Below are positions 17,825 through 54,440 of a stretch of DNA of 59,525 nucleotides, piece after piece. The stretch covers positions 1 to 59,525 of IMG/VR virus record IMGVR_UViG_3300022214_000006. The stretch is one strand, 5' to 3'. Source of the stretch: a virus. Numbering within the stretch: the first letter of the stretch is position 1; each line of letters opens with the position of its first letter. Both the position numbers and the translations under genes were made by a program. The notes beneath the pieces are model-generated. The model made no database searches, was not told the origin of the DNA, and was given only the letters and a program-made list of their open reading frames with translations.

Positions 17825-19077
17825 TGTTTTAGTTGATCGTTTATAAAATCTATTACTTTGTTAGCATTGAAAATATTTGTGCATTCACGTTTAAAACTAA
17901 GAATTCCAGAATTTATACTTGGTATCTGTGCCTTCAATAATGACTCTATCCGTGCGGCTTCTGTCCCAGAACATTCAAATTTTGCTAAAACTTCATAATG
18001 TACGCGATGTTTTCTAAATTCTATTTCGTGTTGTGCGATTCTATTATCAAATACGTTACTAATACCATAACCACAATAAATATCACCTATATTTAGCACG
18101 TATATTATCGCAGGCAACGCTGTTTTAAAACCAGTCACGCTACAGGCAGGGCATCCGTGTTTAGCATGTAATATGTTTGTTGGTTCTGCTAACCATTCAT
18201 GACCACAATTTGTAGACAAACATTTAAATGTTATTTTTGTATCTACATTAACAAATTCACCAATTCGTTGTATCGAACTTCCTTCGAGTCTTACATCGAC
18301 TATTTCATTGGATAGTCTCTCAACTTTAGAACATCTAGCACAACCCTTACCTGCGAATAAATTTGATGCTAATATCGACCATTCTCTACCACACCCGTTG
18401 TTTTCGCATCTCACCTTAAACGGAATAGAATGCTTAATATAAGGAGATACCCTAATTATATTTCTTCCTATAAGTCGTGTATCTATAATCTCGTCAGTTA
18501 GTGGAGCACGTTTTGAGCATTTCGGGCATCCTTTACCTGATTGAATGGCTCCATATCTGGTGTACCATTCATATCCGCAAGTGGGGATACTACATTTAAA
18601 TTTTAATGGTTTATCAGACTGGGTATAGCTACCAACCCTGATAATATTTCGTCCTACTAAACGGGCATCTATTACAGTATTAGTTAGCGGTTCACTCCCC
18701 GAACATTTAGGGCATCCACTACCTCTACTAACTACGTTCAATACTTTAGTTTCCCAAACGTTAAGGCAACTATTAATCAAGCATTTAAATCGTAACTTAG
18801 ACTCACCACTAATTACTTCCCCAATACGCTCTATATTTCTACCCTTTAACCGAGAATCAACAATCTCATTAGTCAACCTCTCCTTCTTAGCACATCTAGG
18901 GCAACCATTTCCGCAACACGTAACATTGGGTGGGAACGTAGACCATTCACAATTACAACCATCTTTCAAGCATTTAAATTTTAACGAAGTTTTGCTGGAA
19001 ACATAATCCCCTATACGCTGTATATTGCGCCCAACCAATTTAAAATCTATGTCTGAATTTGTTAATCTCCTACTCAT
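17815..19077 (-). CDS. Homing-type GIY-YIG endonuclease with five zinc-ribbon repeats
   Basis: A 420-residue protein starting at the ATG after GGAGAGTGTGT; an open frame reaches 19164 but would run through the structured leader. Five repeats of about 65 residues follow the plan LTN-IVD-RL-GRNI-RIG, then KFKC----C--EW, then GCPRC. Each has four Cys, the pattern of a zinc ribbon of the DUF4379 kind. The C-terminal 100 residues contain IYVLNIGDIYCGYGISNVFDNRIAQH, a GIY-YIG-like nuclease core with the following R and H, and E-A--IE-LLK. This layout of DNA-reading ribbons plus a GIY-YIG domain is known for selfish homing endonucleases. It sits against the 5' end of the helicase gene. Confidence 0.8.
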   Translation of the reverse strand: MSRRLTNSDIDFKLVGRNIQRIGDYVSSKTSLKFKCLKDGCNCEWSTFPPNVTCCGNGCPRCAKKERLTNEIVDSRLKGRNIERIGEVISGESKLRFKCLINSCLNVWETKVLNVVSRGSGCPKCSGSEPLTNTVIDARLVGRNIIRVGSYTQSDKPLKFKCSIPTCGYEWYTRYGAIQSGKGCPKCSKRAPLTDEIIDTRLIGRNIIRVSPYIKHSIPFKVRCENNGCGREWSILASNLFAGKGCARCSKVERLSNEIVDVRLEGSSIQRIGEFVNVDTKITFKCLSTNCGHEWLAEPTNILHAKHGCPACSVTGFKTALPAIIYVLNIGDIYCGYGISNVFDNRIAQHEIEFRKHRVHYEVLAKFECSGTEAARIESLLKAQIPSINSGILSFKRECTNIFNANKVIDFINDQLKQCQ

Positions 19078-19097
19078 ACACACTCTCCTAAAACAAA

Positions 19098-19174
19098 GAG
19101 GCTTCACCTGAACTCTCAACCTTGCGGAAGTTGGAATAATGGGCTGACACCCACCAGAGTTCATGTAAAGCCTC
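19098..19174 (-). ncRNA. Three-way-junction leader RNA of GIY-YIG gene 1
   Basis: Between promoter and ribosome site, two 19-base arms (19098-19116 and 19156-19174) pair to a long stem with a small internal mismatch. Inside lie hairpin GTGGG/CCCAT and hairpin CAACTT/AGGTTG, giving a three-way junction. A TTTGTTTT run and AGGAG follow it, as in the leader of the gene at 54.4 kb. Confidence 0.6.
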
Positions 19175-19209
19175 GCCAGTTTAATTCGGATTCCAAGCCG
19201 ATAGGAGAG

Positions 19210-19238
19210 TTTATATACTAATTTATATTACTTGTCAA
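19210..19238 (-). promoter_or_regulatory. Sigma70 promoter for GIY-YIG gene 1
   Basis: TTGACA, 17-base spacer, TATAAA, reading leftward into the structured leader and the zinc-ribbon GIY-YIG gene. Confidence 0.75.
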
Positions 19239-23025: not shown

Positions 23026-23054
23026 ATTATAGATGTTTTAGATGGGGTTGTCAA
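23026..23054 (-). promoter_or_regulatory. Sigma70 promoter, family A
   Basis: TTGACA, 17-base spacer, TATAAT, followed by GCTCGAACGTTAA, the start-region block shared with the promoters at 33.1 and 32.4 kb. It overlaps the 3' end of GIY-YIG gene 2 and drives the gene starting at 22991. Confidence 0.85.
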
Positions 23055-23916: not shown

Positions 23917-23996
23917 AAAACCCTCAAAAATGTACACGAGCCGCCAAGCTGTAGTCCTGTAATAAAACAAGACCCGTGTACATATCTGAGGGTTTT
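23917..23996 (-). ncRNA. Three-way-junction leader RNA of GIY-YIG gene 2
   Basis: Arms 23917-23938 and 23975-23996 form a stem of about 20 bp with one short internal loop. Inside are hairpin TCTTG/CAGGA with loop TTTTATTA and hairpin AGC/GCT with loop TTGGCG. Both loops recur in the leader at 54.35 kb, while stem pairs change in compensating fashion. Confidence 0.7.
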
Positions 23997-24022
23997 ACAG
24001 TTGCTACATCTTGGCTAGGGTT

Positions 24023-24051
24023 CTTATAGCAAAATAATAGTAACTTGTCAA
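24023..24051 (-). promoter_or_regulatory. Sigma70 promoter for GIY-YIG gene 2
   Basis: TTGACA, 17-base spacer, TATAAG on the minus strand, overlapping the last codons of the SNF2-like gene and reading into the structured leader. Confidence 0.75.
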
Positions 24052-36083: not shown

Positions 36084-36713
36084 TTATTCACAACGTTTAC
36101 TATTTCGCACGATAACCCAAAAGCAATGTGTGTTCTTTGCGTGATGCGCTGTTTTCCATCTACCACTTTTAAGATTTCCTCCGCACGGATCACGTTTAAT
36201 AATCAGGTCGCATGGTGTCATTCCAGATTCACGCACCGCTGCATTAAAAAGCTCAAGATTCCATTGATAGCGGTGGTTATGCACATAATCCTTGATCTTC
36301 GCAAAAATCAATCCGTCTTGTTTCAGCACTCGCTTTGCCTCTGCCAGAAATGGTGCGTGAAGTTCACCCACATTGTCGGCCTTTACACCTTTCCCAAGCC
36401 CGTAGTCCGTTCCATATCGTGCCAAAGATTTCGGGCTTGCCGCCGCATCAGGAAGGTGCGGGGGGTCATATACCAGCACATCCACGGTATTGTCGTCATC
36501 GGGTAGCGCATTCCACTCTGCAACAACATCAGGGTTCATTGCAGGGTCACGGTCGTAGTACGCGACTTTTGTTCCTGTCATGCAGCCCTTCCACATCCGG
36601 CGAGCGTTACAGCAAACATCAATTATTCTGTTTGCTTTCGGAGCGTAAAAGTCAAACATCGCATCAAGCAGTGCGTTGTCTTTGCCAATCCATACAGATT
36701 CAATTCTTGTCAT
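36084..36713 (-). CDS. Putative SAM-dependent DNA methyltransferase
   Basis: 209 residues. RIIDVCCNARRMWKG near residue 28 sits where the AdoMet-binding motif is expected, YYDRDP near 52 is an acidic turn, and VLVYDPPHLPD near 78 is the DPPY-type catalytic motif with His in place of Tyr. KRVLKQDGLIFAKIKD is a conserved late strand. Target is unknown. It directly follows the polymerase region in transcription order (upstream of it by about 50 bases). Confidence 0.7.
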   Translation of the reverse strand: MTRIESVWIGKDNALLDAMFDFYAPKANRIIDVCCNARRMWKGCMTGTKVAYYDRDPAMNPDVVAEWNALPDDDNTVDVLVYDPPHLPDAAASPKSLARYGTDYGLGKGVKADNVGELHAPFLAEAKRVLKQDGLIFAKIKDYVHNHRYQWNLELFNAAVRESGMTPCDLIIKRDPCGGNLKSGRWKTAHHAKNTHCFWVIVRNSKRCE

Positions 36714-51134: not shown

Positions 51135-53078
51135 TCAACCTTGTGCGATTATGTGCTGCTGCAACTGTTCAATATATTCTTCATCGGTATCTGGGAGGGC
51201 TTCAGAGCCTGTCAGACTGGCTTTGAAGGTCTCCAGTAGATATGATAGTTCATTGAGTCGTGCGGCTTCCGCAGGGTCTCCAATTTCAGGAATTTCGTCG
51301 AGAATACGGGTGATCTCATAGTCTGCACGTGTTTTGGCTGTGTATCTGCCGCTGTTATCTATCCACGGGCGGTCATCTGGCGACTCCTTATAATAGTCTA
51401 GCAGTCCTTGGTAGAACGGCAGGGTCAGCAGGTCTAATGAACCTTGGGCGGCGGCTAACTTCTCTTCGGCGCGGCGGGATTTTTCGGAGGCTATTGCCGA
51501 GATTATAAAATTGCTGATATTTTTTATATCTGTCGTAACATTCTCGAATCTGCTTACAGACCATTTCAACACTTTGTCTTCAGGTTGTTTATACACGGCT
51601 GCAAAGAACGCTTTGATAGTCATCTGCTTATTTTGGTAAATAATTTGATCTGTCGAATAAACGTTCAGCATTTCCATCATGTCAGATACTGTTACGTAGC
51701 TGTTGACATACTCACCGTCTTTAATGTCTTCGCAGGCTTCAAGGAATAGCTGCACGTTTTCGGCACGTCTTGACTCATCTTTAAGTGTATCCTTATCTAT
51801 GTTCTTGCAGTAGTACTCCCACAAGTCGAATCTTTTGTATATTGTCGGCAACACGCGCTCGACTTCACTGTTTAGGTAGTCTTCGGTGAACTGGTCATAG
51901 TCTTCTTCCTTTATATCTGATGGTATCAGTCCTTGCATTGTCACATAATCAATCTTTTTCTGCGCAGATGTTGCGTGTTCGCTTGTTCGACACGAATTAA
52001 TCAGCAGTTCATAATAGTCTTGGTCTACACCGTCTTCCCCAGTCAAGGCTTTATATGTAGCTCGTGCTGCGGCTGTCTCCATATTAAACATTTGTGTTAA
52101 CGTCTTACCATCGTAGTCCCTTGGCTGCGGGCGAGGCGGGAAATACTTGGCGGCAGTATCCTTGAACTTTTGTTTCTTTTCTGCAATGGTTAATGATTTC
52201 GTAGGTTGTGTTGTGGTGGGGGCTAATTGTTGGATGGTTACGCCGGTGTATAATTGCTGCATTGTTGGGAGTTTCGACACCTTCTTAGCTAATACCGCAA
52301 GTGATGCATCACTACCGTCACCCATTAGAAAGTCAATCAGGTGATCTTTATCTGCACAGTTGCACAGTGTCAGGAATTGCTTGAAGTTCTTTTTCTTATA
52401 TATCCTGCGGAGGTCTAGTTTATCATAATCTATGGTTTCATAGGTTAGGGCAGGTTCTTGTGGTGCCGCAACTTTTTCAGGTTCTAATATCTCACAACAT
52501 TGCTGCCGATACAACGCTAAACTACGCTCGACACCCGCCTGCCCATCAGGATGCTTTATGGTTAAACCTTTCGTAAAACGATTCATGACTTCATCTGAAT
52601 GTGAATACTTAGTGTGTGTATGTTTAGCCATATCTGCACTTATCAACTGTTTCAATACAGGTATTAGATGTTTTGCATTATAGTAAGGCTTCGCCGCGAA
52701 TAAACTATCTTTTTGAAACATCATCGGGTGGTGCGCAGGGATTATACCTTGCCTTGCAATTTCAGTATCTATAATACTTACAGGAAAACCAGAGAACTCA
52801 TGAACCATTTGCACTGAGAATAAAATATCTTTAATGATGGTAAGTTTTATAATGTTGTAGGCGTTAATATCTGCAATCCTAGTTGGTGGAGTTCCGCGAT
52901 ACATTAAGTAGCTACGAAAGCCGTCTTTATCCCACGCAAACATAGCTGATTCTGTATAATAACTCCTCAACTTCAAAAAGTTAATATCATCTGAAAATTC
53001 AGAATTTAGTACGTTTTTTTCTTCTAATTTATAGCGCATTGATGCACTAATGTTGTTAAGTTTACAGAAATATTTCAT
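51135..53078 (-). CDS. Large protein of unknown function
   Basis: About 647 residues from the ATG at 53078 after GGAG; the frame is open to 53231 but would pass through the tandem repeat and promoter. Mostly helical and acidic. Pieces seen: KPYYNAKHLIPVLKQLISAD near 155, a Pro/Thr-rich link near 300-330, and helical regions to the end (AEEKLAAAQGSLDLLTLPFY). No motif is recognised. It is the first gene of the leftward block after the control region, so it is probably expressed early and may act on the host or in regulation. Confidence 0.75.
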   Translation of the reverse strand: MKYFCKLNNISASMRYKLEEKNVLNSEFSDDINFLKLRSYYTESAMFAWDKDGFRSYLMYRGTPPTRIADINAYNIIKLTIIKDILFSVQMVHEFSGFPVSIIDTEIARQGIIPAHHPMMFQKDSLFAAKPYYNAKHLIPVLKQLISADMAKHTHTKYSHSDEVMNRFTKGLTIKHPDGQAGVERSLALYRQQCCEILEPEKVAAPQEPALTYETIDYDKLDLRRIYKKKNFKQFLTLCNCADKDHLIDFLMGDGSDASLAVLAKKVSKLPTMQQLYTGVTIQQLAPTTTQPTKSLTIAEKKQKFKDTAAKYFPPRPQPRDYDGKTLTQMFNMETAAARATYKALTGEDGVDQDYYELLINSCRTSEHATSAQKKIDYVTMQGLIPSDIKEEDYDQFTEDYLNSEVERVLPTIYKRFDLWEYYCKNIDKDTLKDESRRAENVQLFLEACEDIKDGEYVNSYVTVSDMMEMLNVYSTDQIIYQNKQMTIKAFFAAVYKQPEDKVLKWSVSRFENVTTDIKNISNFIISAIASEKSRRAEEKLAAAQGSLDLLTLPFYQGLLDYYKESPDDRPWIDNSGRYTAKTRADYEITRILDEIPEIGDPAEAARLNELSYLLETFKASLTGSEALPDTDEEYIEQLQQHIIAQG

Positions 53079-53103
53079 AACTTTTTTACTCCAAAATTGA
53101 AAA

Positions 53104-53152
53104 ATCGTGTCCAAGGTACAAGGAATCGTGTCCAAGGTACAAGGAATCGTGG
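53104..53152. repeat. Tandem 21-bp direct repeat
   Basis: Two perfect copies beginning ATCGTGTCCAAGGTACAAGG and a partial third. Located over and downstream of the leftward -10 region. Confidence 0.9.
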
Positions 53153-53186
53153 CCGTTGTCAAGACATTTTTAGCGGTTAGTAAAGG

Positions 53187-53277
53187 AATTATGTCCGTCG
53201 AGATGGTAGTAATTCCTAATGTTTCGGACAAAAGTGTCGGTTGAGAGGCGATGAATTTCCATTAGACGGACATAATT
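53187..53277. repeat. 13-bp inverted repeat pair
   Basis: AATTATGTCCGTC at 53187-53199 and GACGGACATAATT at 53265-53277, perfect and 65 bases apart. Their spacing suits two operator half-complexes or a looping repressor. Confidence 0.85.
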
Positions 53278-54292: not shown

Positions 54293-54321
54293 TTGACAAA
54301 CTAGAAAATTTTTGGTACAAC
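54293..54321 (+). promoter_or_regulatory. Sigma70-like promoter P2 for GIY-YIG gene 3
   Basis: TTGACA, 17-base spacer, TACAAC. Both promoters contain ATTTTTGG-like sequence just before the -10 box, as if duplicated. Confidence 0.55.
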
Positions 54322-54346
54322 CTAGCTGCCAAATAGTTATTTAGTC

Positions 54347-54421
54347 ACATCCGTTATATGCTCATCGTCTGGTTTTAATACCGGATAACTGTTTGGCGAC
54401 AGGTGAGCATATAACGGATGT
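54347..54421 (+). ncRNA. Three-way-junction leader RNA of GIY-YIG gene 3
   Basis: Arms 54347-54364 and 54404-54421 pair perfectly for 18 bp. Inside are hairpin TCTGG/CCGGA with loop TTTTAATA and hairpin CTGT/ACAG with loop TTGGCG. TTTTTGTTTAGGAG and the ATG follow. Loops and plan match the leader at 23.9 kb. Confidence 0.75.
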
Positions 54422-54440
54422 TTTTGTTTAGGAGTAAGAA

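Follow-up and report, generated by a model that had tools for sequence, protein, structure and literature searches.

The window, that is, the whole stretch of DNA analysed, is an IMG/VR virus record of 59,525 bases (41% GC) that carries phage genes for tail, primase/helicase, polymerase, exonuclease and methyltransferase proteins; in an Rfam scan of it, tRNAs were the sole matches above gathering score. Three genes (P0001, P0002 and P0003) match GIY-YIG/endonuclease families and are putative homing genes, and a structured leader lies before each of them (leader A before P0001, leader C before P0002, leader B before P0003). The coordinates are collected in Table 1. Single-protein searches of IMG/VR with P0001, P0002, P0003 and the neighbouring helicase returned no close relatives; the nearest named phage carrying both primase and helicase was Pseudomonas phage Rollin (protein identity to the window: primase 29%, helicase 35%), and from these protein comparisons the phage appears to be nearly an orphan. 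Also recorded in the window were a 698-aa ORF without PHROG match (51135-53231, minus strand) that has a perfect 21-bp tandem repeat of 2.3 copies near its 5' end (53103-53151); three phrog_67 DNA methyltransferases in the one phage (12428-13243, 38739-39527 and 48395-49237 (minus)); and a fourth methyltransferase-like gene (36084-36713).

Table 1. Coordinates of the GIY-YIG genes, promoter-like sites, 5'-end segments (ANTI) and leader elements in the window.
Feature	Position	Strand	Description or basis
P0001	23038..23913	-	GIY-YIG (T5orf172-type) endonuclease with DUF4379 treble-clef zinc fingers; behind leader A
P0002	17815..19077	-	GIY-YIG (T5orf172-type) endonuclease with DUF4379 zinc fingers; behind leader C
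P0003	54441..54956	+	GIY-YIG endonuclease with C-terminal Fis-type HTH_8; behind leader B
Promoter-like site A	24023..24051	-	TTGACA, 17 nt, TATAAG; sequence
Promoter-like site B	54293..54321	+	TTGACA, 17 nt, TACAAC (weak -10); sequence
Promoter-like site C	19210..19238	-	TTGACA, 17 nt, TATAAA; sequence
ANTI segment A	24004..24015	-	GCCAAGAUGUAG, predicted RNA 5' end; pairing with CUACAGCUUGGC
ANTI segment B	54328..54340	+	GCCAAAUAGUUAU; pairing with AUAACUGUUUGGC
Leader A, three-way junction	23917..23996	-	RNA folding, inverted-repeat and stem scans
Leader A, outer stem arms	23975-23996 and 23917-23938	-	
Leader A, hairpin 1	23953-23974	-	Loop UUUAUU
Leader A, hairpin 2	23939-23950	-	Loop UUGGCG
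Leader B, three-way junction	54347..54421	+	RNA folding, stem scan
Leader B, outer arms	54347-54365 and 54403-54421	+	
Leader B, hairpin 1	54367-54386	+	Loop UUUAAU
Leader B, hairpin 2	54389-54402	+	Loop UUGGCG
Leader C	19098..19174	-	Plan common with A and B, sequence different; RNA folding, stem scan
Leader C, outer arms	19156-19174 and 19098-19116	-	
Leader C, hairpins 1 and 2	19138-19155 and 19117-19133	-	

Layout and stability of the leaders

Endonuclease genes: P0002 and P0001 share 36% identity across the aligned C-terminal part and both match PHROG 681 (2e-52 and 1e-36, respectively); the Pfam T5orf172 match was below cut-off for P0001 and was not listed for P0002. The GIY-YIG type of P0003 differs from that of the other two, and its fusion to a Fis-type HTH_8 domain is not known to be common among homing endonucleases. 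The gene after P0001 has a perfect sigma70-type promoter (TTGACA-17-TATAAT, 23026-23054, minus strand) within which the stop codon of P0001 partly lies, an arrangement that resembles the embedded promoters of T4 homing genes.

Order of elements: promoter, ANTI segment (A and B), three-way junction, U-tract, ribosome-binding site (RBS) and GIY-YIG ORF follow one another at these loci. The promoter-like sites are consensus matches only, the -10 box of B being a poor one; site A is omitted by the promoter scan, as the last base of its -10 hexamer is not T. In a promoter-leader scan, the leaders of the other promoter-bearing genes of the phage were mostly shorter.

Folding: the three-stem leaders that the original prediction had placed before the GIY-YIG genes were obtained at the same positions, with energies of −40.5 kcal/mol (A, z −9.05), −41.0 kcal/mol (B, z −9.04) and −39.8 kcal/mol (C, z −5.35), no shuffle being equally stable in any of the three cases; each has a promoter-like site on its upstream side and a GIY-YIG ORF on its downstream side. 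A structured leader common to these genes is supported. A and B are the two top-ranked inverted repeats in 59.5 kb. When the whole window was scanned for stems whose enclosed 24–60 nt form a pair of hairpins, A gave 23 pairs, B 20 and C 18, every other element giving 15 or fewer, and A, B and C were the only elements with two hairpins on a stem of more than 17 bp. For B, folding is more favourable with the sense strand than with its complement (−40.4 vs −31.3), and U-G wobbles are kept in both hairpins, which favours the sense RNA.

U-tracts and RBS: a U-tract follows each stem (A, UUUUGUU; B, UUUUUGUUU; C, UUUGUUUU). The 8 nt after each stem contain 6–7 T; 8-mers with at least 6 T make up 1.2% of those in the window, and a U-tract after 3/3 stems would arise by chance with a probability of ca. 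2e-6. None of the three stems was called by a consensus terminator scan, the rule of which is restricted to loops of 3–8 nt. A Shine-Dalgarno-like GAGGG is buried within the 3' arm of leader A; the RBS of B (AGGAG, 54430-54434) and of C (AGGAG) lie outside the stem, after the U-tract, ca. 9 nt downstream of the stem.

Rejected candidates: a leader peptide was considered, since every leader has an AUG in its 5' arm, but the frames run to 19 codons (A) and 6 codons (B) and stay open in C; a guide RNA was set aside, as neither a variable segment nor other support for it was found.

Relation between the leaders and search for relatives

Homology of A and B: a structure-blind local alignment of A with B extends over the whole region bounded by the -35 box and the start codon, with a score of 68 (maximum of 500 shuffles, 47), and on this alignment the two are homologous from promoter through start codon. 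The corresponding A/C and B/C alignments were not significant; leader C keeps the three-stem plan that had been ascribed to it, without demonstrable sequence homology to A or B.

Covariation: the core alignment of A and B (54 columns, one N) was placed by hand, and as it holds two sequences its statistics are weak. All 20 pairs hold in both leaders; 5/20 differ between the leaders at both bases and 2 at a single base, and none is broken. This degree of covariation was equalled by 14/500 shuffles, and slid structures gave zero two-sided changes. The compensating changes claimed earlier are thereby supported, and the three exchanges that had been named (T-A to G-C in hairpin 1; C-G to T-A and A-T to T-A in hairpin 2) were read correctly. 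On structure-blind automatic alignments, where gaps are misplaced, no helix is significant alone. The outer stems had been described as unrelated in sequence; this applies to their lower halves only, since the upper 8–9 bp can be aligned (AUGUACAC vs AUGCUCAU) and include two exchanges that are compensatory. The loop sequences UUUUAWUA and UUGGCG are conserved between A and B.

Leaders and proteins: leaders A and B are similar but precede proteins of different kinds; P0001 and P0002 are similar proteins, but the leaders before them do not resemble each other. Because A and B are alike, and by alignment homologous, before endonucleases of different families, the leader is taken to be a module that is kept as such and is not co-inherited with its protein.

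Relatives: no Rfam family matched the leaders (weak miRNA-type stem matches lay far below threshold), in agreement with the view that no known RNA class is represented. Scans of IMG/VR for the loop and hairpin pattern gave matches that, wherever structurally examined, were without flanking or outer stems; the examined matches of a pattern scan of GTDB genome contigs failed the stem check. A covariance model (R1), with which A scores 78 bits and B 71 bits, found nothing credible beyond A and B in 589 kb of GIY-YIG and related loci, no further element in nine whole phage records and, in 369 whole bacterial genomes, two matches of ca. 25 bits (E about 0.005–0.008), both inside ORFs. In Rollin no A/B-like element was found, and those named phages with P0001/P0002-type endonucleases that were examined are mostly without an intergenic leader at that place. 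Conservation beyond this one phage is therefore not supported: the IMG/VR, GTDB and covariance-model searches returned chance matches only, and no further homologue with covariation was found in IMG/VR, GTDB, the 369 genomes or the GIY-YIG loci. The element, as judged from these searches, is known from one genome and is a candidate rather than a demonstrated RNA class.

Predicted pairing of the 5' end with hairpin 2

ANTI segments: in A and in B the predicted RNA 5' end, directly after the predicted -10 box, is complementary to the junction and, within hairpin 2, to the 5' strand plus the loop; this pairing, like the U-tracts, had been overlooked in the original prediction. ANTI A pairs with its target at 11/12 positions, an A-G being the sole defective pair, and ANTI B at 13/13, with one G-U. 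Between A and B, 4/12 pairs of the ANTI helix are changed two-sided (30/500 shuffles do as well), P-values for ANTI being weak as they come from a single pair of homologous leaders. Several hairpin-2 bases covary with two partners simultaneously, i.e., with those of the hairpin and with those of ANTI.

Competition of the folds: on folding of the growing transcript of A, the ANTI fold (−23.5 kcal/mol) is the most stable one at lengths of ca. 73–91 nt; for B (−21.3 kcal/mol) this holds at ca. 70–82 nt. After the 3' arm has emerged, it is replaced by the three-way junction (A, −42 kcal/mol; B, −41 kcal/mol). Shuffled or random 5' ends reach the stability of ANTI in about 0.5–2% of trials for A and about 0–1% for B. 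The refolding barrier out of ANTI was 17–19 kcal/mol over nested paths, an upper bound, as pseudoknotted paths are not included. A pseudoknot could accommodate ANTI together with the base of the outer stem, in which case ANTI need not block termination. The candidate switch is known from two sequences, A and B; leader C gave no significant ANTI pairing in a 5'-end replacement test.

Complementarity in leader C: 15 nt of the region of the predicted transcription start (19202-19216) are complementary (87%) to the RBS of the leader-C gene (19076-19090), possibly as a second pairing that hides an RBS, possibly by chance.

Proposed function and comparison with known systems

We consider it likely that the leaders are, in the broad sense, cis-acting RNA control elements of the endonuclease genes. 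The more specific reading, a promoter-proximal attenuator or kinetic switch that would keep endonuclease output low or conditional, is held with moderate confidence, its chances of being right or wrong being about balanced. What the computation shows in its favour is a pair of competing folds in each of A and B, conserved together, a U-tract behind every stem and the place before three GIY-YIG genes. Transcription would start ca. 20–35 nt upstream of the stem, at a position inferred from the sigma70-type promoter. In the emerging RNA, the predicted pairing of ANTI would begin at the U-turn loop UUGGCG and take in the junction together with the 5' strand of hairpin 2; transcription of the 3' arm would then allow the three-way junction, the more stable fold, to form, and its base runs into the U-tract as a predicted intrinsic terminator. 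In leader A the junction would additionally bury the RBS. Passage of the polymerase into the endonuclease gene would then depend on the lifetime of the ANTI fold, a presumed trigger acting on the switch and the presumed effect being on expression. The association of stem and gene rests on one phage and a modest enrichment elsewhere.

Known systems of the T4 type: in T4, RNA structures that cover the RBS restrain the homing-endonuclease genes (PMC2988022), a link that had not been drawn for these leaders before; in seg43 of Aeromonas phage 25 a very stable hairpin of unknown effect lies just upstream of the RBS (PMC2988022) and on inspection is a simple, 9-bp one. Like A, B and C with their putative homing genes, the leaders of this group (I-TevI/II/III, segB, Aeh1 mobE, seg43) belong to phage homing endonuclease genes, many of them GIY-YIG, and have a very stable RNA structure at or before the RBS that is presumed to limit expression; the RBS is outside the stem in B and C, as in seg43 of phage 25, and inside it in A. 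Unlike A, B and C, with their three-way junction, upstream sigma70-like promoter and U-tract, they are simple hairpins, and most go with a middle or late promoter that is located within or next to the hairpin; the self-complementary 5' end and the two loops common to unrelated endonucleases set A and B further apart.

Translational control of the T4 style alone, in which the stem at or beside the RBS lowers translation on some transcripts and the U-tract is a translation feature, is judged unlikely. It would suit the GAGGG inside the stem of leader A and has precedents in I-TevI/II/III, segB and Aeh1 mobE, the RBS of which is hidden in a hairpin (PMC2988022), and in the IMG/VR GIY-YIG genes L295, L296, L312 and L313, where a stem occurs with a TATAAATA-like late promoter. 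The RBS of B and C, however, lie outside and downstream of the stem; a late-type promoter is not seen inside A, B or C, where neither a TATAAATA-like nor a sigma70-like site was found by eye or by scan (the motif may not be this phage's); and ANTI and the conserved loops are left unexplained.

An effect on RNA processing or stability, with the 18–22 bp stem as an RNase III site or as a protective, 5' cap-like structure, is improbable. Perfect stems of ca. 20 bp suit RNase III, cap-like protection of mRNA 5' ends is known from T7 early mRNA and ompA leaders, and ANTI would tuck the extreme 5' end away; neither the conserved loops nor the covariation of ANTI nor the U-tracts are required for such a role.

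Binding of a protein, be it the endonuclease in autoregulation, a phage RNA-binding protein or RNA polymerase in the manner of HK022 put, has in our estimate quite a small probability. The conservation of the loops from A to B would agree with it, and put RNA is described as a promoter-proximal phage antiterminator RNA (PMC9378689). On the other hand, UUGGCG is already accounted for by ANTI; A and B precede different DNA-binding domains, and A and C precede related proteins yet their loops differ. Binding by the downstream endonuclease is disfavoured because likeness of leader and likeness of protein disagree.

Still fainter is the prospect that promoter, folded RNA of ca. 105 nt and terminator form a separate gene for a trans-acting small RNA, the endonuclease being expressed by read-through only. 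The targets would be other copies, host or rival-phage RNAs, or the GIY-YIG enzyme as a partner, and the self-complementary 5' tail would give each copy its own specificity.

A palindrome that acts at the DNA level (a cruciform, or a recombination or insertion mark of a homing cassette) and has no RNA function is the least credible of the explanations: long palindromes do stand here at the start of mobile genes, and GIY-YIG enzymes can act on branched DNA, but conserved wobbles, the orientation matched to the gene, the U-tract and ANTI make sense only in the sense RNA.

Attenuators and antisense systems: intrinsic terminator/antiterminator attenuators share with the leaders a promoter-proximal stem and a U-tract, and ANTI in A and B is a candidate for their mutually exclusive upstream pairing (a pseudoknot being possible), whereas C gave no significant one; A, B and C differ from them by the two-hairpin top, the lack of a leader peptide and of a known ligand, and a stem of 18–22 bp that is very long compared with those of intrinsic terminators, and termination is in their case predicted. 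The motif 5'-rUUGGCG-3' is named as the loop of the ColIb-P9 antisense target (repZ; Asano et al., as listed in the references of PMC10724649), and loop recognition in hok/sok is by a single-stranded tail at the 5' end (PMC4485353). With plasmid antisense and attenuator leaders such as that of ColIb-P9 repZ, A and B have in common a U-turn-type loop (UUGGCG/YUNR) and a complementary GCCAA and, the pT181 and pIP501 attenuators included, competing folds; in contrast to the plasmid antisense systems, the GCCAA strand is supplied in cis, from the RNA's own 5' end. A search for a gene encoding an antisense RNA was negative: on the opposite strand, promoter matches around A did not exceed background and there was none just downstream of B, in a scan that might miss a weak promoter; the likeness of A and B to plasmid antisense control is therefore seen as a resemblance of mechanism and not as membership. 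HEARO/omega RNA (IscB) likewise adjoins a nuclease gene as a structured RNA; A, B and C differ in having no Rfam match, no variable guide segment and a different nuclease fold, and nothing indicates a guide function for them. The three-way-junction architecture with a self-complementary 5' end appears to be a new form of structured homing-gene leader.

Survey of GIY-YIG leaders in IMG/VR: folds with z < −3 were obtained for 16/53 non-redundant GIY-YIG leaders vs 24/403 control ORFs (p = 1e-6); against intergenic controls the excess shrinks (9/25 GIY-YIG vs 15/93, p = 0.05). A stem of 12 bp or longer that ends close to the start was present in 7/25 GIY-YIG leaders vs 7/93 intergenic controls (p = 0.01). 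No surveyed GIY-YIG leader has a two-hairpin junction. At L295, L296, L312 and L313/L314/L329/L344, an outer stem of 11–17 bp, in the region ca. 20–100 nt upstream of the start codon, ends near that codon; inside most of these stems there are a hairpin of terminator-like form and a TATAAATA-like sequence, a layout like that of I-TevI.

Low expression of homing endonucleases spares the phage, and its control is known mainly from T4-like phages, by way of simple hairpins. The IMG/VR survey supports, as the broader theme, some generality of strongly folded GIY-YIG leaders. If the proposed attenuator or kinetic switch is true, unrelated endonuclease genes in one phage would share one RNA module, which by its U-turn loop and complementary 5' tail would resemble an antisense control directed at itself; RNA control of homing genes would then extend past the relatives of T4, and the leaders would represent a compact natural attenuator.
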